Positions 14,819-54,789 of a DNA stretch of 64,000 bases are shown here, one piece after another. The notes under the pieces were generated by a model, which had not been told where the DNA came from, did no database searches, and saw only the letters and a list, made by a program, of their open reading frames with translations. This DNA is from Polytrichum commune. Taxonomy: Eukaryota; Streptophyta; Polytrichopsida; Polytrichales; Polytrichaceae. Position 1 is the first letter of the stretch; every line of letters begins with the position of its first letter. Both the position numbers and the translations under genes were made by a program. Location: contig OX485804.1 in the NCBI GenBank assembly GCA_950295325.1, positions 17,360,001 to 17,424,000 of the forward strand. Reading direction: 5' to 3'.

Positions 14819-17800
14819 CTATTGCAACGTGTGCCGCATCACATGCCGCCGAGCCCAAAGCTCGTACATGACTGTGTGGAATGCGTCGAATTCCTCTGGT
14901 GGAGTGTGCCATTGAAAATGCACCCGAGCTTGCATCACGTGCTTGTGGAGCTTTGCGTATTGGGCCGGGGTCACAGCTGCCAACGTCTCCTTGAGCAACG
15001 GGATGTCAAAGCTTGACAAAACGATGGAGAATTTGCTCCAATCTAGCACATCATTGAAGGGTAGGTCGTAGTGGTTGGCAATCACGACCGGAACGCAGCC
15101 GTAGAACATGGCGTCCCCCAGACGGGCGGTGTTCACCTCGAAACCTTTGGCGTGGAGGCAAAACTTGCTCGTGAGCATGCCCTCGGAGTACGGGAACGGG
15201 ACTTTCCCTTGGTGAACTAGAATGTGTTCGTCGTTCCCCCATGCCTTTGCTAGTTGGATGCGTACGTTTGAGTTCAAGGCACCTGCGAAAAATGCCAATC
15301 TTTTCCTGGAAAACCAAGACACACAACTATGAGTGTAGTCGACCTAGAGAATCTCTATGTAATGTTGTCTTCTAGAAACGAATGTCATAACATTCTTGAA
15401 AAGTGAGATGTTGTTCTCTTCCTAATGCAAACAAGCCATAAACATAGTCAACTGGTCTCCTTTTACATTTTGAAGCGATGAACGGGGAAAACCGACTGCT
15501 AGTTATAGATGAACTGGTTTGAGTTTGAAAAATAGCCGGTTGGAGTGAAAGTCTTCTCAAAATTACTGATCATTTTAGAGGAATTTAGGGAATATACCCC
15601 AAATTGGTACAGAAAAACCGAAAAAAGTCACCATGTAACTGGTTGGACTTGCAAGCACCAGGATCTCGACCGACTATCCCCCAAACCTCCCAAGACACTG
15701 TTTTCAAAATTGCTTGTCTACCTCTGATTTGAATGGACCACTCAAATGTTTAAACTATTGATACACTAACAATGGACTCCCCATTATATATATGAATTAC
15801 TCTCTTACAGACCCTCTTTGAACTCTTTCCGACCCTCAATTCTTGAGTGTCAAAGGATTTTAAGGAATGTGGTCGAGTCAATCAATCATCGGTTGGCAAT
15901 GAAAATATACGATATATACAGAGTTTTATGTGTGGGATGAGCATGCAACCTTGACCTATAAAACGTTGAAAGCCAATTACTGAGAGAATCGATTCAAAGT
16001 GATCACAGAAGTTGCTCATAAGTTGGGTATATATAATAGGCTCCAAGGCCAAAGAAGTTCCAGAATTAAGCGATCATTGCATTGGCCGAGACCAAAGGAG
16101 TTTACATTAGGGTCCGGGTGCACGGCATGAAGTAATGAAGGAGTGGTAATATGGCATACCATCCTGCCAAATCTTGCCGATCCCCACTCAAAGAAACATT
16201 CCTCCTAGTTTGAGAAACCAACGTTCAAGCTGGGGTTCAATCTTGAGTCCGCAAGTATTAAGGTCCAAAATGGGGTCTTTTGGATCCCGACTTTCTTGCA
16301 CCCGGGACCCTAATGTCAACCCAACTTTAGTGTAAGCAGGAGGTTGGTGGATTGAGAGTTACCTTTGTGAAATATGGCCAGCGAGCTTCGGCGTGGATCC
16401 CAACCGGGGCCAAATTTGCGGGACCGACGCATCCTTGTGCGAGACGTAGGAGGCCAAAAAGTAGCTCGCGGGACATAGCAATTGGATCGCATTGTGTCGC
16501 ACGTATGGCACAAAGTCCATGGCCGAACGCGCGATGGAGTGGCATGACAAGTAGAAGTGGTCGGCCCCAGAGCTCCGGTTCCAATAGCCCCAACGCGCGC
16601 GCACGTCTGTCACATACTCCCGGCAAAACTTTTGAAGGCCCTCGACACCCACGCGGCGGTCCAAACGCGCCTTCGTGATTGACACTGGCATGTAGAAGAA
16701 ATGGGCCTCCGCGGGGTCCTTGGTCACGAACGGGCTCTTCAGGAGCGCCTGTTTGAAGTACTCCTCACTCGCATAGTTCCCCCCCGGTGTTGTGGACCTC
16801 ACTTGAAAGATGTTGTAGAACGGGTCGGTCCTCTCAACTGGGTACACAAAGACTCGAATCTCGCTCTTCATTTCTGCGTAGTCCGAGAGGAATATGCGGC
16901 GAGAGTGGTAGGGTCCATTGTCGTCGTCGTCGTCGTTGTCACCTTTGCCATCAACTACCACATCACACATATGTAGTATTCCTCAGCCAATGTACAATTC
17001 ACTCTTCATATGGAATTCTAATCTTTGATATCCTAGAATAAACAAGTCTGGGTCTTGTAGATCCAAATCTTTAGATTGAAGATGGCACTGCATGCTCCGG
17101 CTTCAATTAAATGGGACAATCTTCTGATTTGAAGGAGAATTCGGATAGTGAGGACCCCAAATCATAAAAGCAGCGAGCTTATTGCATGCCGAAATGAAAA
17201 AGAGTGAAGGGCTATGTTCATAAAGAATGTTGTTCAAAAATCACACTCTAAACATAACATTCTTAAACATGTGTAAGGATGTTCTCTTTCCATTTGAAGA
17301 ATACATGAATACGTTCAAGTTTTTTTCTATTCAAGCTTCAAGAAAGTAAGGGCAGAGAGAGATGGACCCTCTGCAGCACTTTTTTGACGTAATCAGACCA
17401 TCCCAGCATCATGTTCTTTTTCTCCAGAGTTTCTCAAAAAACACTTAGCCGAATGCAAAAATAAAAGTTTAGGATTTCAAACTGCTTTTCAAGTTGCTGT
17501 CATCAAGGCACAATGGTGAATTCCAAAACATGATCAAATGCGACAAACCATTAGCAAACCGAAATGAATTCAGTCAACCTCATGTTGTTTGCTGCGAGAT
17601 TTCTTGATGAATTTTGTAGAGTTCTGGATCCAATTTCAAAGGGTGACTCAGAGATTGGACTCAGTATTTGTTGTCATGAGACCTGCCACTCCCGGTAGTA
17701 GCAGCAGGTCAAATCTCAATACATACTGGACATAGCCGATGGCTACTCCCGCACAAAATCGTCCGAAAACAAAACTCTATACATCCCTGCAAGCAGGTAC

Positions 17801-28680: not shown

Positions 28681-28710
28681 TTATTGGGGGTTTGCGGCAA
28701 CTATTGCATC

Positions 28711-31700
28711 ATGGACAACTCCTTGCTTTTGATGGGGTGTTCAAGAAAATTGAAGCAATTGGAACACGCTAAAATTTTATTGAATGCAAAACAATGTTTG
28801 CATTTAAAAAACAAATCTCATCTTGTTCTAGAATGTTTCATGACTTTGGTCGAACAAGTTCATGACAAAATGGAGTTTGGACCAAGTATGAAGGATTTAT
28901 ACCGAGTTGTGTGTAAAATCGAGGCATTAATCCAAGATTGCGCTAGGGACGATTGGATCCATGCATCATTGTGGCAATCGAATAATGAAGAAGAGTTTCG
29001 TGAGTTGCTTGAAGAGCTCAATTACATTTTCAATACATTGTGTGAGCAATTCCAAATATTGGGGATAATGACCATGGACCTTCAAAAACCCATAGAGTTC
29101 AATCCAATGAATATAACAGAAGTGGAGAAAGACCAAAAGGCATTGGTCCAACAATTGTTGGAATATCTTGATGCAACAAAATCCTTCAAGGATCACGAAG
29201 TTGCAAAATATGCTTACGACCGGTTGGTTTGTCGAATGGACGGAGAAGGCGTTGAGTTGAATGGTGGAACATTTCCAACATACAATGGGATTCCTCAACG
29301 ATTAACTTGGTTGGGAAATGGTGCTTCTGGACAAATATACGAAACAAATTGCTTTGGCTTGGAATTGGCTTTGAAGGTTTTTAAAGCGGTTGACATTGAT
29401 TACGAGCATTTAGCGGATGCAAACTTCAAGAAAGAGGTGGGCATTTTAGCAGGGTTGAGTCATCCAAACATCGTTAAGTTCATATGTTGTGGTGAAGGAC
29501 ATGCTTATGATAGCAAATGGCGATATATAGTGATGGAAAAGATGGAGAGAAGTCTTGGAGTTGCAGACATGAAGGACGTTGATTTCCAACGATCAAACCT
29601 TGTTGTCCTTGATATCATGTTCCAAATTGCAAGCGGAATGCTCTATCTCCATGACATGAATGTTGCACACCGTGACTTAAAGCCCGAAAATATCCTTGTG
29701 AACTCCTTGAATGATCCCATATTGGATCCCATGGGCTACGTGAAAGTTAAATTGGTGGACTTTGGGGTTTCAAAAATCGAAGCAAAAGATGCTTACCAAG
29801 AGCCAACGGGACATAATCTAGGTACCACCGGGTTTAGGGCACCAGAGACATTTGTAAGATACGATGACACATTGAAACATTTTGTGAATGCTTTCAAAAG
29901 TGATGTATTTAGCTTCGCCATGGTGTGTTCTTACATTCTCACGAGGGAGATTCCATTCTCACAATGTAGTAGATCTGAGATAAAGGACAAGATGCAAGTT
30001 GGAGAGAGGCCAAGGTTGCCGTGCGATTGCCCCGAGTCATTGATATCTTTGATCAAAGAGTGTTGGTCTTTCGAACCATCAAAAAGGCCAACCTTTCAAG
30101 ATATTTGTTCAAGGCTTTGTCAAATTAGGCATGAACTTCATTTAAATGCTTTAAACATCATGAACAATGGTGTGAAGATGGACAAGTCCAACATTCCTCA
30201 AACTCAAGAAACAAGTGAGAACAATCTACCAACAATAGATACAATGGATCACAAGGGGGATACAAGTGCAAAGCAGGGAGGAAACGAGCTTGTTGGTATG
30301 CAAGAAAGAATCCCAAGGGTTATGAGGGCATTGGAGGAACACTCCATAGTGGCCATTATAGGGGTGGGTGGAATGGGAAAAACTGCTTTGGCAGAAGCTG
30401 TGATGGAACTCATGCGTGGTCATTTTGAAGCATTTTGCTTTACTTTCATGAAAAACAAAAATTGTGGCACTATCGAGATTTTCAAAGAAATTTTGAACAA
30501 CTTAGGGGCCAAGGTTGATGATTTGGAAGACATTGTACAAGCAAAAACTCGTCTTTGTGAAACAATAAAAAACAAAAGTGCTCTCATTGTTCTTGACGAC
30601 ATTGGCAATAGTACACAAATTCATGAATTGATGGATGTTGAGATCTTTGAAGCCAAACGTACCAACAAGATGATCATCACAACTCGTGATTGGCACCTTG
30701 TGGAAAACCTTGGAGATGTTGGTCGTGTACATTTGGATGAACTCATGAAAGGCGAAGCTATGAAATTATTCTCTAGGCATGCTTTCGGTGATCAAGGATA
30801 TGAAACACCATCTCATATGGTGGACATTGTCGAGAACATTGTGGATGCATGTAGAGGGTTGCCTTTGAGCTTGAAGGTTGTGGGTGGAACCTTATATGGA
30901 TTCAAGAGAGTACGCATTTGGGTGCGAGCTTTGCAAAGACTACAAAGGGCAAGATCCTTGGGATTGACAAATAACAATGAGGTTTGGCATTGCCTACGGA
31001 TAAGCTTTGATGACCTTACTGAAGAAGAAAAAAATTTGTTTTTGGACCTATGTTGTTATTTTAGCAAAGATTTGGTCCCAATGGATACATTAAAAGTTGT
31101 GACCTCATCACGTTTATGGAGAGAAGTCAACAAAAATCCTGAAGAGTTATTAAAACGTCTGGAAGATAAATGTTTGCTTAAGATTCACGAAGATGGAGTC
31201 TATGAAGTCCATGAACAATTACGGGATATGGGACGTATGATTGCGGAAACAGACCCCATGTATACTGGCACTCGATGGTGGAAAATACAAGAAGCAACTT
31301 GGAGTGGGAAAACACAAGGACTTATGGAGCGTATCGAATGTCTTTCTTTCAGTGAACCAACAAAGAAGTTCAAAACACACTTTGACATTACAAAACCTTT
31401 GTCTTCGCTTCGATTTTTTGGTTTTCAAGGTTTTGAGGGTCCAATCTCATTGGATAAATTTTTGAATCAATCCAAAAATCTCCAATGTTTGATGGTGATT
31501 TGCCAACCAAATCAAAATTTTGCAACAACCTCAAATCCATTTTTGTTCAATTGGGACAATCACATAAATTTGCAAATTTTGGTGATTGAAGGCGTATCTA
31601 CTCTATCTGAAATTGGTGATAGTATTGGACAATTGAAATTTTTATACAGAATGAGAATAAGAGATTGCCAAAATTTACAATCCCTACCAAGCACCATAGG

Positions 31701-33657
31701 CAACTTAAATATCTTGAGTTATTTTGACTTAAATGGGTGTGGAGGATTGAAGGAGATACCCATGGCCTTGGGTAAAATGACCTCCTTGACTCACCTCAAC
31801 TTAAGTGTGTGTCGAGGCTTGAAGGAGATACCGGAGGTGTTGGGTAACTTGACCTCCTTGACCTCCATGGGCTTAAGTGGGTGTCGAGGCTTGAAGGAGA
31901 TACCGGAGGCGTTGGGTAACTTGACCTCCTTGACCTCCCTTGACTTAAGTGGGTGTCCAGGCTTGATGAAGATACCGGAAGCGTTGGGTAACTTGACCTC
32001 CTTGACCTCCCTTAACTTAAGTGGGTGTAGAGGCTTGAAGGAGATACCGAAGGCGCTGGGTAACTTGACTTCCTTGACCTCCCTCAACTTATATTGGTGT
32101 CCAGGCTTGAAGGACATACCGGAGGCGTTGGGTAACTTGACCTCCTTGACCTCCCTTGACTTAAGTGGGTGTCGAGGCTTGAAGGAGATACCGGAGGCTT
32201 TGGGTAACTTGACCTCCTTGACCTCCCTTGACTTAAGTGGGTGTTCAGGCTTGAAGGAGATACCGGAGGCGTTGGGTAACTTGAACTCCTTGACCTCCCT
32301 TGACTTAAGTGGGTGTCCAGGCTTGAAGGAGATACCGGAGGCGTTGGGTAACTTGACCTCCTTGACCTCCCTTGACTTAAGTGGGTGTCCAGGCTTGAAG
32401 GAGATACCGGAGGCGTTGGGTAACTTGACCTCCTTGACCTCCCTTGACTTAAATGGGTGTGAAGGCTTGAAGGAGATACCAGAGGTGTTGGGTAACTTGA
32501 CCTCCTTGACCTCCCTTGACTTAAGTGGGTGTCGAGGCTTGAAGGAGATACCGGAAGCGTTGGGTAACTTGACCTCCTTGACCTCCCTTGACTTAAGTGG
32601 GTGTCGAGGCTTGAAGGAGATACCGGAGGCGTTGGGTAATTTGACCTCCTTGACCTCCCTTGGCTTAAATGGGTGTGAAGGCTTGAAGGAGATACCGGAG
32701 GCGTTGGGTAACTTGACCTCCTTGACTTCCCTTAAGTTAAGAGGGTGTCGGGGCTTGAAGGAGATACCAGAGGCGTTGGGTAACTTGACCTCCTTGACCT
32801 CCCTCAACTTATATGGGTGTAAAGGCTTGAAGGAGATACCGGAGGCGTTGGGTAACTTGACCTCCTTGACCTCCCTCAACTTAAGTGAGTGTCAAGACTT
32901 GAAGGAGATACCGGAGGCGTTGGGTAACTTGACCTCCTTGACCTCCCTTGACTTAAGTGGGTGTCGAGGCTTGATGGAGATACCGGAAGCGTTGGGTAAC
33001 TTGACCTCTTTGACCTCCCTCCACTTAAATGTGTGTGCAGGCTTAAAGGAGATACCGAGGGCGTTGGGTAACTTGACCTCCTTGACCTCCCTCAACTTAT
33101 ATTGGTGTCCAAGCTTGAAGGACATACCGGAGGCGTTGGGTAACTTGACCTCCTTGACCTCCCTTGACTTAAGTGGGTGTCGAGGCTTGAAGGAGATACC
33201 GGAGGCTTTGGGTAACTTGACCTCCTTGACCTCCCTTGACTTAAGTGGGTGTTCAGGCTTGAAGGAGATACCGGAGGCGTTGGGTAACTTGACCTCCTTG
33301 ACCTCCCTTAACTTAAGTGGGTGTAGAGGCTTGAAGAAAATACCCGAGTCGTTGGGTAACTTGACATCCTTGACCTCCTTCAATGTAAGTCGTTGTCGAG
33401 GGTTGGAGGAGATACCGGAGACGCTGGGTAATTTGAGCGCCTTGACGTCCCTCAACTTGAATGGATGTCGAGCCTTGAAGGAGATACCGGAGGCTTTGGG
33501 TAATTTGACCTCTTTGACCTCCCTCAACTTAAATGAATGTAGAGGTTTGACGAAGATACCGGAGACGTTGGGTATCTTCACATCTATGACGTCCCTCCAT
33601 TTAAATAGAAGGAAACGCTTGACTCGATATTGGAGAAATTTGGTTACTTGGCTTTAG
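28711..33657 (+). CDS. Kinase-NB-ARC-LRR immune receptor (NLR), 1648 aa
   Basis: This is a single uninterrupted frame from ATG 28711, with an in-frame TAG at 28675. Domains in order: a helical N-terminus (about 1-185) whose LIQDC..DDW..ASLW stretch (73-87) recalls plant MLKL-type kinases; a complete protein kinase with GNGASG 202-207, Lys222, HRDLKPEN with Asp322, DFG with Asp350 and APE with Glu379; a linker; NB-ARC with P-loop GVGGMGKT 551-558, kinase-2 Asp629-Asp630, IITTRD, GLPL at 716 and a VHE (His834) at the MHD position; then 27 LRRs of exactly 24 residues (989-1636). NB-ARC is a nucleotide-dependent switch and LRRs usually sense ligands. Kinase-fused NLRs are known from mosses. The VHE instead of MHD and the homogeneous LRRs are unusual. 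A TTG-led extension upstream is possible but unlikely. Confidence 0.93.
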   Translation: MDNSLLLMGCSRKLKQLEHAKILLNAKQCLHLKNKSHLVLECFMTLVEQVHDKMEFGPSMKDLYRVVCKIEALIQDCARDDWIHASLWQSNNEEEFRELLEELNYIFNTLCEQFQILGIMTMDLQKPIEFNPMNITEVEKDQKALVQQLLEYLDATKSFKDHEVAKYAYDRLVCRMDGEGVELNGGTFPTYNGIPQRLTWLGNGASGQIYETNCFGLELALKVFKAVDIDYEHLADANFKKEVGILAGLSHPNIVKFICCGEGHAYDSKWRYIVMEKMERSLGVADMKDVDFQRSNLVVLDIMFQIASGMLYLHDMNVAHRDLKPENILVNSLNDPILDPMGYVKVKLVDFGVSKIEAKDAYQEPTGHNLGTTGFRAPETFVRYDDTLKHFVNAFKSDVFSFAMVCSYILTREIPFSQCSRSEIKDKMQVGERPRLPCDCPESLISLIKECWSFEPSKRPTFQDICSRLCQIRHELHLNALNIMNNGVKMDKSNIPQTQETSENNLPTIDTMDHKGDTSAKQGGNELVGMQERIPRVMRALEEHSIVAIIGVGGMGKTALAEAVMELMRGHFEAFCFTFMKNKNCGTIEIFKEILNNLGAKVDDLEDIVQAKTRLCETIKNKSALIVLDDIGNSTQIHELMDVEIFEAKRTNKMIITTRDWHLVENLGDVGRVHLDELMKGEAMKLFSRHAFGDQGYETPSHMVDIVENIVDACRGLPLSLKVVGGTLYGFKRVRIWVRALQRLQRARSLGLTNNNEVWHCLRISFDDLTEEEKNLFLDLCCYFSKDLVPMDTLKVVTSSRLWREVNKNPEELLKRLEDKCLLKIHEDGVYEVHEQLRDMGRMIAETDPMYTGTRWWKIQEATWSGKTQGLMERIECLSFSEPTKKFKTHFDITKPLSSLRFFGFQGFEGPISLDKFLNQSKNLQCLMVICQPNQNFATTSNPFLFNWDNHINLQILVIEGVSTLSEIGDSIGQLKFLYRMRIRDCQNLQSLPSTIGNLNILSYFDLNGCGGLKEIPMALGKMTSLTHLNLSVCRGLKEIPEVLGNLTSLTSMGLSGCRGLKEIPEALGNLTSLTSLDLSGCPGLMKIPEALGNLTSLTSLNLSGCRGLKEIPKALGNLTSLTSLNLYWCPGLKDIPEALGNLTSLTSLDLSGCRGLKEIPEALGNLTSLTSLDLSGCSGLKEIPEALGNLNSLTSLDLSGCPGLKEIPEALGNLTSLTSLDLSGCPGLKEIPEALGNLTSLTSLDLNGCEGLKEIPEVLGNLTSLTSLDLSGCRGLKEIPEALGNLTSLTSLDLSGCRGLKEIPEALGNLTSLTSLGLNGCEGLKEIPEALGNLTSLTSLKLRGCRGLKEIPEALGNLTSLTSLNLYGCKGLKEIPEALGNLTSLTSLNLSECQDLKEIPEALGNLTSLTSLDLSGCRGLMEIPEALGNLTSLTSLHLNVCAGLKEIPRALGNLTSLTSLNLYWCPSLKDIPEALGNLTSLTSLDLSGCRGLKEIPEALGNLTSLTSLDLSGCSGLKEIPEALGNLTSLTSLNLSGCRGLKKIPESLGNLTSLTSFNVSRCRGLEEIPETLGNLSALTSLNLNGCRALKEIPEALGNLTSLTSLNLNECRGLTKIPETLGIFTSMTSLHLNRRKRLTRYWRNLVTWL
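31675..33618 (+). repeat. 72-bp tandem repeat array encoding 27 LRRs
   Basis: There are 27 contiguous 72-nt units with no indels. The consensus residues are LKEIPEALGN followed by LTSLTSL and a variable xLxxCxG segment. Nucleotide identity between neighbours is very high except in the first and last two or three units. The block of units 6-8 (from 32035) recurs as units 20-22 (from 33043), exactly 14 units (1008 bp) apart, sharing diagnostic variants (YWCP, KDIP, a GCT Ala codon). Confidence 0.95.
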
Positions 33658-34067
33658 TGCCCTCAATCAAAATGAATGGTTGTGTAGGCTTGAAAATGTT
33701 GAAGTGTTGGGTAATAGTTGGAAATTAATATTAGAGGTTGTGGGCAACATGATCTTTTGGACTAGGCTCAACTTATGTAGATGTCAAGGCTTAAAAAACA
33801 TACATGAGGCATTGGGATAACTTAACCTCCTTGACTCCATTATATTAAAATGAGTGTAAAGGCTCAAATGAGATTCAAGGGAACATTGTGAAACTCAACT
33901 TCCTTGACCTTGTTGGTTTCAATTGGGTTGAACGGCCTAAAGTAGATACTAAAGGCCTTTGGTATCTTGATCTTTTTGACATGTTGCACTTGAATGGGTC
34001 GAATGGCCTACAGGAGATACCGGATGCATGGATTAATTTGACATCCTACAACTTACATGAGTAATTA

Positions 34068-49154: not shown

Positions 49155-49371
49155 TGGGACTCCTGAGGCCATCGCCACCGTTCCCCCCAACGGCCACGCC
49201 AACGGCAGGTGGCCGGGGTGGGTCCCGGCACAGCCACCACCGCCCTCCCGGCAACCCTAAACCCACTGCCGGTCATGCCATCCCAGGTGCCTTGGACGGC
49301 AGCTTGGTGTGCAATTTTTCCACCCTCCAAAACTTGACTTTTTCAGTCTGACACTATTGGAGGTTTTGTCA

Positions 49372-50274
49372 ATGGCTGGTCGGAGGGAACGAGGTGGTGG
49401 AATGGGATCACCGGAAGGGGGGCCAACAAAAGTTGGTTGCAAAGGAAAGAATTTTATGAGGGTGGAAGAAGAGCAACTTTGCAAGAGTGTGATGCTGGTT
49501 TCGCAAGATCGTGTAGTGGGGAATCAGCAGAAGGCAGGTGTGTTTTGGGAGAGGATTACTGAACACTACAATGCAAACCAGCCAGATGGAGTGCGGCCAT
49601 TGCGAAGTCTGGAGACAAAGTGGGGTTTGATAAAACACAATGTATCAAAGTTCTGTGGCATTTACAGTCAGATTCAACGTATGCACAAGAGTGGCAGCAA
49701 TGCTGCAGATACATTGAGAGATGCAAAGGAGTTGTATAGGCAGAAAAATGCAAAAAATACAGATTTTCTCTTTGAGCATTGTTGGTTGTTGCTCAAAGAC
49801 TGTCCCCGCTGGGCTGACGGATGGACGCAGTCGCCTATGGGGAAGAAACGATCGGCTCATGAGTGCGAGGGAAGCAACACACAAGATCAAGATGGTGGCA
49901 CTTCGGAGGGTGCAGCAAGGTCTCAAACTGTGTATAATGAGCGGCCGGGGGGAGTGAAAGCAGCAAAGCAAGACAACATGCAACAAAAGATAAGGGAAGG
50001 AGCATTGTATGCTCAAGCTGAGGCAACAAGGAGTATGGTAGCAGTTCAAATGAAGAAAGTTGCTCTTATTGAAGACCAGAATATGTTGCTCTTGATGACC
50101 ATGCCAATAGAAGACAGTGCAGGGGAGGATGCACGCGAATACCTAAGGTTTGGGAGGGGAGAAGAGCTAAAAAAACTGAAGAAAAGGTTGTGTGAAGAGG
50201 AATCCTGTAACAAACCTCTCACCGGTTTATCACCAATTTCCGAACTAACACGTATCAACCCAAAACAATCATAG
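49372..50274 (+). pseudogene. Harbinger Myb/SANT-like accessory protein, interrupted by a solo LTR
   Basis: From ATG 49372 the frame gives a Myb/SANT-like DNA-binding region (GKNF.RVEEEQLCKS, VVGNQQKAGVFWERI, LETKWGLIKHNVSKFCG) followed by the NAM-associated type region (LRDAKELYRQK, FEHCWLLLKDCPRW) and a C-terminal coiled coil. In PIF/Harbinger transposons such proteins bind element ends and bring the transposase to the nucleus. After codon TCC at 50203-50205 the sequence becomes LTR, which adds 23 foreign residues before a stop. The original frame resumes directly after the second target-duplication copy at 51185 with a charged KEH/KEERR segment, then a low-complexity Gly/Arg tail. The encoded 300-aa product retains the DNA-binding part. 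Confidence 0.85.
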
Positions 50275-53449: not shown

Positions 53450-54763
53450 TTATAAAATTTCTGCATACATGTTTTGACCCTTCAAAGCCCACAAGTGCTC
53501 AATGAGGTCTCTTTTCAAACTGTAGTGCATAACCTCATCTTCTATCTCCTCTGTGTCTTCCACCAACTGCTCAAAAGCCCATCCTCTCTTCATGGGCACA
53601 TTGTCTTCAAATGCAGCCTCAAATACATTTTCGAGGCCCTGCACACCACTTTCATCATCAAGTATCATGTTATGCAAGATGCAGCAAACAAACATGATGT
53701 TTGGAATTCCCTGCATCCCCCACTGCCGACACGGATTGCGAATGATTGTAAACCGGGCTTGAAGAACGCCGAAACACCTCTCCACATCCTTCCTGCAAGC
53801 TTCTTGCCTCTTTGCGAAGCGCCTCTTCTTCTCATCCTCAGGGTTGTGGATGCTTTGGACAAAACAACTCCATTGCGGATAAATACCATCAGCCAACAAG
53901 TAGTAGCGGTTGTATTCTTGGCCGTTTACCTCAAATGTCATGTCACATGCGGCGCCGCTTAGCAAGTCATGGATCAAGGGGGACCGATCTAAGACATTTA
54001 GGTCATTATTTGAACCGGGGAGGCCAAAATAAATGTGCCAAATGTGCAAACTCTGGTCAGCCACAGCTTCCAGGATAATGAATTTTCTGCCGTCTCGATC
54101 TCCAAAATCACCCTGCCAAGCCACATGGCAATTCTTCCACTCATAATGCATACAATCTAGAGAGCCAAACATATCGGGGAATCCACGGGCCTCATTGATG
54201 GCGACTTGTTGCCAACAATCCTCATACGTGGGTTTCCGCAGGTAGTACTCTCCAAACTCCGCCCGCACTACAGCACAAAATCTCCCCATGCACTCCATGG
54301 CGGTGGACTCACTCGTCCGGCAATAGTCATCCATGGCATCTGCACACACTCCCAGTGCTAGCATCCGCAGTGCAGCGGTTACCTTCTGCCGTGAAGACAA
54401 CCCTATCAAGCCAGCCGCATCCCTCTTCTGTACAAAATATACATCCCGGGCATACACCCTCTCCAGAATATAACAAAAAAGTGACCTCCTCATGCGATAT
54501 CGACGCCGAAAGATATTTGGGCCATGAGTAGGACAATCTGCAAAATAATCCTTGTGCATCTGTGCATCCATAATCACTCTATCTCTCTCAATGTTAGCTG
54601 CCTTGCCTTGGCGTGAACCACCTGCAGCTCTCTGCGACGGGGGTTCATAATCAATGAAGTCCTGGAACTGGTCAATGGCCATCTCCATGTCCACGTCATC
54701 ATCTTCGTCGTCCTCCAAAAACCTCTCCCGGGACTTCCTAAACCTAGCACTCCAAGCCTCCAT
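53450..54763 (-). CDS. PIF/Harbinger DDE transposase, apparently intact
   Basis: The protein is 437 aa from ATG 54763, single exon. The acidic N-terminal segment (DDEDDD near 18-23) is followed by the FRRRYRM..SLF helical region and the DDE_4-type nuclease fold. The catalytic residues are Asp203 in GSLDCMHYEW, Asp292 in LLADGIYP and Glu328 in KDVERCFGVLQ. Family motifs RKPTYEDC, GLPGSNNDLNVLDRS, RFTII and CCILHNMI are present. It cuts and pastes the element together with the Myb-like partner. No stop or frameshift is seen, so the gene could still be active in trans, although its own partner gene is interrupted. A TTG-led extension of eight codons is possible but an ATG is available. Confidence 0.93.
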   Translation of the reverse strand: MEAWSARFRKSRERFLEDDEDDDVDMEMAIDQFQDFIDYEPPSQRAAGGSRQGKAANIERDRVIMDAQMHKDYFADCPTHGPNIFRRRYRMRRSLFCYILERVYARDVYFVQKRDAAGLIGLSSRQKVTAALRMLALGVCADAMDDYCRTSESTAMECMGRFCAVVRAEFGEYYLRKPTYEDCWQQVAINEARGFPDMFGSLDCMHYEWKNCHVAWQGDFGDRDGRKFIILEAVADQSLHIWHIYFGLPGSNNDLNVLDRSPLIHDLLSGAACDMTFEVNGQEYNRYYLLADGIYPQWSCFVQSIHNPEDEKKRRFAKRQEACRKDVERCFGVLQARFTIIRNPCRQWGMQGIPNIMFVCCILHNMILDDESGVQGLENVFEAAFEDNVPMKRGWAFEQLVEDTEEIEDEVMHYSLKRDLIEHLWALKGQNMYAEIL

Positions 54764-54789
54764 CCGCCTAAGCAAAGATAAACTCAAAT

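Follow-up and report, generated by a model that had tools for sequence, protein, structure and literature searches.

One intact gene at 28711-33657 of a 64,000-nucleotide stretch of the Polytrichum commune genome (contig OX485804.1, positions 17,360,001 to 17,424,000; the whole stretch is called the window) encodes a protein whose front half, composed of an N-terminal domain (N-domain), a brace and a kinase, is with high probability homologous to the MLKL protein of PDB entry 6lba, as judged from profile alignments. The domains follow one another on a single protein in the order N-domain, kinase, NB-ARC and leucine-rich repeats (LRRs), with Pfam matches to the kinase at residues 199-467 (E 1.5e-39), to NB-ARC at residues 540-767 (E 5.2e-32) and to LRRs up to the C-terminus. 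The intact kinase-NB-ARC-LRR gene that a first-pass annotation of this DNA had observed is thus borne out by open reading frame (ORF) and Pfam analysis. We lean, by a small measure, towards reading the protein as a nucleotide-binding leucine-rich repeat (NLR) immune receptor in which an MLKL-type module (helical N-domain, brace and kinase) would serve as the N-terminal executor. Since the catalytic residues are complete, the protein is not filed as an MLKL, and we call its front half alone MLKL-derived.

The front half and its relation to MLKL

A profile of 28 N-domains, built without the kinase, had a single significant match in the PDB, 6lba (E 2.3e-6), with the next match at E 0.08, among 177,635 sequences searched. 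When the profile was made from 16 relatives without window-type rows, 6lba was matched at E 5.7e-7. Eight N-domain columns are invariant in the 28 rows (N25, C29, C77, W82, Q89, E94, F96 and D141). The first four are common to 6lba in the N-domain profile alignment, and D141 matches 6lba in a weak second stretch of that alignment and in the alignment of the full module; 6lba does not share Q89, E94 and F96. Residues C77 and W82 lie in the LIQDC..DDW..ASLW segment in which the first-pass annotation had seen a resemblance to plant MLKL proteins and which we located at residues 73-88. Note that the 28 rows omit loci with a stop inside the N-domain (L002), with two N-domains (L024) or with short or truncated starts (L025, L026 and L033), near copies or repeats (L001, which is the window gene, L003, L004, L006, L007, L008, L016, L019 and L020), and the DUF1221- and MLKL_N-type loci (L009-L012 and L046-L056). 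The profile of 16 relatives omits the eight window-type rows plus L023, L029, L030 and L032.

In hhalign comparisons the N-domain profile matched two sets of N-domains from this genome, four of DUF1221 type (E 1.9e-13) and three of MLKL_N type (E 3.1e-8). The window-type rows alone gave E 9.3e-8 and 1.6e-4 for these two sets, and the window sequence alone matched the DUF1221-type N-domains at E 1.7e-5; the controls (each profile reversed, and ten shufflings of its columns) all stayed at E 0.09 or higher. One of the four DUF1221-type sequences, L053, exceeds the DUF1221 cut-off, and all three MLKL_N-type sequences (L047, L049 and L050) exceed the MLKL_N cut-off. In the hidden Markov model and profile searches the N-terminus falls in with plant MLKL, DUF1221 and MLKL_N and not with an unrelated family. 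The domains RPW8, Rx_N, Cbl_N and HeLo occur neither among the three Pfam families listed for window residues 1-200 (E <= 10) nor among the 25 of 53 Pfam families listed for the 28 members.

The similarity continues beyond the N-domain. A full-module profile aligned with 6lba in two ordered stretches, 6lba 20-135 (26.2 bits) and 184-518 (182.8 bits), the second of which spans from profile position 139, in the brace-like segment, through the kinase. An EGFR tandem construct ranks first in this search because it contains two kinase domains. A kinase-only profile of the eight window-type rows ranked 6lba first and 6ka4 second in the PDB (both of which we take to be Arabidopsis AtMLKLs), a profile of four DUF1221-type proteins gave the same two ranks, and window residues 1-963 as a single query likewise ranked 6lba first. 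On these alignments the relation to MLKL is wider than first claimed, with brace and kinase MLKL-type as well. The entry 6lba is called an MLKL protein in published work (PMC10881975; this and the papers below are cited for passages of their text). The catalytic residues of the window kinase that the first-pass annotation had named, Lys222, Asp322, Asp350 and Glu379, all stand at the stated positions, Asp322 within His320-Arg321-Asp322 and Asp350 within Asp350-Phe351-Gly352; the kinase also has the alpha-C Glu242. Across the 28 aligned rows K222, E242, H320, D322 and E379 never vary, and 27 rows retain D350.

Several results weigh against this derivation of the front half. The eight window-type N-domains alone gave no PDB match at E <= 10, and the single window N-domain as query found no MLKL structure. 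Since profiles with relatives do find 6lba, the link from the window N-domain to MLKL is, by these searches, transitive, passing through relatives with 26-34% identity to the window over the N-domain, which are themselves clearly homologous to it (those in the alignment match at E values from 1e-30 to about 5e-15). The profile of 16 relatives also matches a ULP-protease chain (E 0.0013), and the four DUF1221-type N-domains rank 6lba first, yet only at E 0.021. Pfam MLKL_N matches window residues 21-116 below the cut-off (E 0.0027) and is surpassed there by ATG17_like (E 0.0002, also below the cut-off); six of the 28 members match MLKL_N at E <= 1, the best at 0.0027 and none over the cut-off, and DUF1221 is not among the Pfam matches of residues 1-200 at E <= 10. 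In the kinase tree described below, 6lba does not stand beside the NLR kinases, and its own placement is weak (57). Finally, structure prediction was uninformative. AlphaFold2 without an alignment returned a predicted local distance difference test (pLDDT) score of 38.7 for residues 1-195 and 35.1 for residues 1-485, and the latter model turned the kinase all-helical, which is wrong for a kinase. The modelled helices (3-30, 37-54, 60-79, 81-89, 93-116, 135-155 and 162-177, with pLDDT under 40) would suit a bundle and a brace but carry no weight, given the low scores and the wrongly modelled kinase. Of the membrane-acting, MLKL-like four-helix bundle that the first-pass annotation had proposed, the sequence homology to MLKL stands, whereas the four-helix fold and the membrane action draw no support from the present results.

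The family and its kinases in the moss genome

The genome searched comprises 408 Mb, with seven large contigs. Residues 1-200 gave at least 150 matches at E <= 0.01 (150 of 150 scored, from 376 candidates), 40 of them at 49-100% identity and 110 at 27-38%, with at least two pairs of matches sharing one gene each. The ratio of nonsynonymous to synonymous substitution (dN/dS; NG86, ratio of means, 36 pairs from nine paralogs) was 0.48 in the N-domain, 0.42 in both the kinase and NB-ARC residues 536-695, and 0.61 in the linker. The N-domain is thus constrained, if slightly less so than the kinase. By these values and the number of genome matches, the gene observed in the window is no product of chance.

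An NB-ARC lies behind the N-domain in all 13 relatives sampled through their downstream stretches on the same strand, of which one (L073) was known beforehand and the other 12 were not. Four kinases of other types, two MLKL_N-type and two DUF1221-type, showed no NB-ARC in the roughly 3.5 kb behind them. More broadly, at least 52 of 116 N-domain places (106 of the 150 matches plus 10 from DUF1221 and MLKL_N searches) have an NB-ARC within 5 kb downstream on the same strand, counting the 126 scored of 466 NB-ARC candidates. The true number is probably higher, for the 64 places that lack a match in this incomplete list include the window gene. Conversely, 74 of the 126 scored NB-ARC matches are unpaired with any entered N-domain place. 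We considered whether the matches of 27-38% identity, which lie in frames of 500-660 residues, are stand-alone MLKL-like kinases. This was rejected for those sampled, which have an NB-ARC exon downstream and are first exons of NLR genes. One relative, L027 with L073, has a candidate GT-AG phase-0 intron between kinase and NB-ARC (donor at nucleotide 1686, acceptor at nucleotide 2400; without transcript support).

In a kinase tree with 32 members, all 19 NLR kinases group together with ultrafast bootstrap (UFBoot) 100; this clade includes the L027/L073 kinase and is adjoined by the tandem kinase candidate L023 (82). The NLR kinases, L023, L077 and the four DUF1221-type kinases in turn form a clade (UFBoot 99), outside which fall three outgroup kinases, the three kinases of MLKL_N type and 6lba. 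The tree omits L049 (weak kinase score) and L051/L052 (no kinase match), and it was rooted on one of the three outgroup kinases, which did not group together. The single clade of NLR kinases is what one would expect if an MLKL-type kinase had been fused just once with NB-ARC-LRR and the product had then multiplied to the present number of N-domain matches.

Six of the 28 rows (L027-L032) depart from the catalytic consensus. All six have HLD for HRD, and in place of DFG four have DYD, one DYG and one (L030) VSE. Lys222 and Asp322 are kept in 6/6, and Asp350 and Asn327 in 5/6. We dropped the idea that this group is kinase-dead, as Lys222 and Asp322 are retained throughout and L030 alone is clearly without catalytic residues. 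The three members included in the tree form a clade (UFBoot 100) inside the NLR kinases. A pair resembling RIPK3 and MLKL within the family is accordingly a possibility and not more. The same loci (on contigs C2, C3, C4 and C6) have an extra Trp/Phe-rich stretch before the N-domain, at the start of the first exon, with a 19-residue Kyte-Doolittle mean of up to 1.42, borderline for a membrane helix; it is possibly an interfacial anchor. As an optional extra to the broader proposal of an MLKL-NLR class given below, these members might act as a membrane arm for the catalytically typical ones.

Other loci of the family have unusual layouts. L024 (C3:26873800-26876700) is an 802-residue frame with two consecutive N-domain matches, after which comes an NB-ARC match at C3:26876879. 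L023 (C1:11029300-11033250, minus strand) is a 1137-residue frame in which an apparent kinase end is followed by N-domain and kinase, with no NB-ARC match in the stretch fetched, and it is possibly a tandem kinase of the window family. Five serial N-domain matches, four of them with identical score (51-52% identity to the window), extend over about 150 kb at C6:37185454-37338551, where open frames reach 3674 residues and would encode NLRs of very large size. At C6:19029510-19030643, minus strand, a 1202-residue frame combines an NB-ARC with a weak MLKL_N match (C6:19030395; E 0.0097, below the cut-off), the two lying too close together for a kinase to fit between; this frame is perhaps an NLR of Cbl-N/CC type.

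Known systems, mode of action and competing explanations

Kinase-fronted NLRs of mosses (PNL or Pkn-NLR) have been published since 2012, and 45 of 65 surveyed nucleotide-binding site (NBS) genes of Physcomitrium patens belong to the kinase-NBS-LRR class (PMC3352924). The window gene has the same order of kinase, NB-ARC and LRR on one protein. In moss PNL genes a phase-0 intron that separates the kinase from the NBS is conserved (PMC3352924); the window gene lacks it, and L027/L073 has the candidate described above. As the window frame is continuous and L027/L073, with its intron candidate, falls in the same kinase clade, we place the window gene in an intronless branch beside PNL-type genes; the likeness rests on published descriptions, and typical PNL status is not proven. 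The N-terminus of kinase-NLRs has been described as a protein kinase that clusters with the Tsn1 kinase, and the passages of these papers name no MLKL-type N-domain for them (PMC3352924, PMC11218826). Passages of PMC12512272 and PMC7145615 mention MLKL 0 times. In the open-licence literature we found no text recognising an MLKL-type domain in moss kinase-NLRs, which is not proof of absence, and papers on 'MLKL-NLR' were judged to concern PANoptosis, inflammasomes and disease. Kinase-fronted moss NLRs are thus already known, while the view of their front half as an MLKL-type module is apparently unreported in the open-licence literature. The N-terminus of a P. patens Pkn-NLR, synthesised up to the NB-ARC start, caused modest and variable cell death in Nicotiana benthamiana (PMC11218826), although inclusion of a window-type N-domain in that construct is unconfirmed; ion leakage was mild for all kinases tested but a Tsn1 mutant (PMC11218826).

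By published description the plant MLKL family is conserved throughout the seed plants (PMC9950082), and a survey with NLRtracker reported NLR-associated proteins including MLKL more widely (PMC11218826). The window protein shares with plant MLKL (6lba and 6ka4; DUF1221, PF06760) the N..QC and C..DW motifs, the brace and the kinase, in that order. It differs in that plant MLKL has no NB-ARC and is described as a pseudokinase (PMC10951266), whereas here complete catalytic residues are followed by NB-ARC and LRRs. Wheat Pm13, which confers resistance, combines MLKL_NTD, brace and a kinase with key residues and is in this respect, by its description, like the window protein, but no NB-ARC or LRR is described for it (PMC10951266). 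The family of animal MLKL (MLKL_N, PF22215) is the one that gave the weak Pfam match to the window reported above. Animal MLKL has the order bundle, brace and kinase, which the window protein, with its putative bundle, would share, and the helper NLRs ADR1 and NRG1 are not known to have a kinase, unlike the window protein. Also unlike the latter, animal MLKL is a pseudokinase that is switched on by a separate kinase, RIPK3 (PMC9950082). It carries no sensor on its chain. The helper NLRs, with their RPW8/HeLo-like N-termini, offer a possible functional parallel as NLRs bearing a four-helix-bundle executor (PMC9950082), but their N-terminus is of RPW8 type and the Pfam matches listed for the window include no RPW8.

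On whether the window protein works in the manner of MLKL, our judgement is evenly balanced. By analogy with known systems, the LRRs would sense a pathogen product, as in plant NLRs generally, and ADP-ATP exchange in the NB-ARC would gather several receptor copies. The gathered kinases, whose catalytic residues are intact, would phosphorylate one another or a neighbor. If plant and animal MLKL are a guide, the brace would then let go of the N-terminal bundle, and the freed bundle would act on the membrane, or on separate MLKL-like kinases, and so lead to cell death. One point counts against this scheme. The literature regards AtMLKLs, like animal MLKL, as pseudokinases (PMC10951266); the window kinase lacks none of its catalytic residues, and a release in the way of MLKL may therefore not apply to it.

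If the front half is an MLKL module, the kinase-NBS-LRR class would gain a concrete and testable executor. Plant MLKL and NLR immunity would meet in one protein, so that the triggering of MLKL in plants could be addressed on a single polypeptide, and one chain could unite sensor, kinase and MLKL-type executor, which in mammals are distinct proteins. The broader proposal that moss kinase-NLRs as a class are all MLKL-NLRs, each joining a necroptosis-type executor, an activating kinase of its own, a switch and a sensor in one protein, is put forward tentatively, and we hold it to be doubtful.

Three other explanations were weighed. According to the usual description of kinase-NLRs, the protein would be a kinase-output receptor, in which kinases clustered by the NB-ARC phosphorylate downstream immune proteins and the N-domain is regulatory or dimerising, with no action on membranes. 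The catalytic residues, all intact in the window and widely kept in the family (K222, E242 and D322 in 28 of 28 rows, D350 in 27), the kinase dN/dS of 0.42, the requirement of the wheat Tsn1 kinase domain for its HRD motif in N. benthamiana cell death (PMC11218826), and a window N-domain with no strongly hydrophobic stretch (best 19-residue Kyte-Doolittle mean 0.92 over the first 150 starts) all agree with this description. However, the N-domain is itself constrained, though less than the kinase, as its eight invariant columns and dN/dS of 0.48 indicate, and in other proteins a domain homologous to it brings about cell death (PMC10951266). We regard a pure kinase output as unlikely, while giving it real weight.

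A second explanation makes the MLKL-type module an integrated decoy, a bait for effectors that attack MLKL or related kinases, with output residing elsewhere. NLRs with integrated kinases have been reported (PMC11218826), and the MLKL-like kinases without a nearby NB-ARC in the same genome mean that a target for mimicry exists. Yet the module sits at the N-terminus, the executor position of plant NLRs; the NLR kinases form one clade and not scattered insertions; and the 13 of 13 relatives sampled carry an NB-ARC behind the N-domain, a sampling that is blind to NLRs without an N-domain. A decoy is in our view improbable. That the N-domain is a generic coiled-coil or RPW8-like bundle of plant NLRs, MLKL-like only through a shared four-helix form, is very improbable, for although CC-type NLR domains are also predicted to be four-helix bundles (PMC11218826) and the weak MLKL_N match at C6:19030395 directly precedes an NB-ARC with no kinase between, the match of the window family rests on sequence motifs (N..QC and C..DW) and continues into brace and kinase, and the Pfam families listed above for the window and the 28 members do not include RPW8, Rx_N, Cbl_N or HeLo.

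Features of the gene and of the window

The coordinates of the features are collected in Table 1. The frame is continuous to the stop at 33657 from ATG 28711, from which 1648 codons are counted, or from an in-frame TTG at 28684, 27 bases upstream of the ATG; the ATG context is common to the window gene and six close paralogs (L003-L008).

Table 1. Features of the kinase-NB-ARC-LRR gene, in window coordinates
Feature	Position	Strand	Basis or remark
Whole coding frame, 1648 aa, intron-free inside	28711..33657	+	ORF; ATG kept in six close paralogs
N-domain, residues 1-120, MLKL_NTD/DUF1221-type	28711..29070	+	Profile match to 6lba 21-130; hhalign to DUF1221-type N-domains
LN..QC motif, residues 24-29; N25 and C29 invariant in 28 rows, common to 6lba	28780..28797	+	Alignment
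C77....W82, inside LIQDC..DDW element; invariant in 28 rows, common to 6lba	28939..28956	+	Alignment
Brace-like segment, residues 135-180; D141 invariant in 28 rows, matched in 6lba	29113..29250	+	Full-module profile alignment
Protein kinase domain; K222, E242, HRD 320-322, DFG 350-352, APE 377-379	29293..30135	+	Pfam, motif inspection; nearest solved kinases 6lba, 6ka4
Linker, residues 476-535	30136..30315	+	Position of candidate phase-0 intron in one relative
NB-ARC, residues 540-767, with P-loop, kinase-2, RNBS-B, GLPL	30328..31011	+	Pfam, motifs
Winged-helix/ARC2 region, VHE at MHD position (31207-31215)	31012..31350	+	WHD_ROQ1 match below cut-off
Leucine-rich repeats, mostly 24-aa units	31588..33630	+	Pfam, tandem array

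The NB-ARC behind the kinase, which the first-pass annotation had called complete, has GVGGMGKT at 551, LIVLDD at 625, TTRD at 657 and GLPL at 716. At the MHD position the window protein has VHE (residues 833-835), a variant shared by the paralog L017; L018 and L019 have IHD and six others MHD. The LRRs are encoded by a 72-bp tandem array at 31724-33596, with 26 copies and 88% matches. Past the stop codon, at 33658-34060, the DNA resembles decayed 72-bp LRR units by eye, and because of this we suspect that the window copy may have lost C-terminal repeats.

Elsewhere in the window, a transposase frame lies at 53453-54787 on the minus strand (Pfam Plant_tran E 2.2e-84, DDE_Tnp_4 E 1.1e-14), and near it, at 49309-50271 on the plus strand, a frame with a NAM-associated domain (E 1.2e-8). 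The two are perhaps parts of one DNA transposon, which we presume might be of PIF/Harbinger type. Two frames at 14822-16970 on the minus strand match exostosin GT47 (Pfam E 5.2e-31 and 1.4e-21) and are probably exons of one glycosyltransferase gene.

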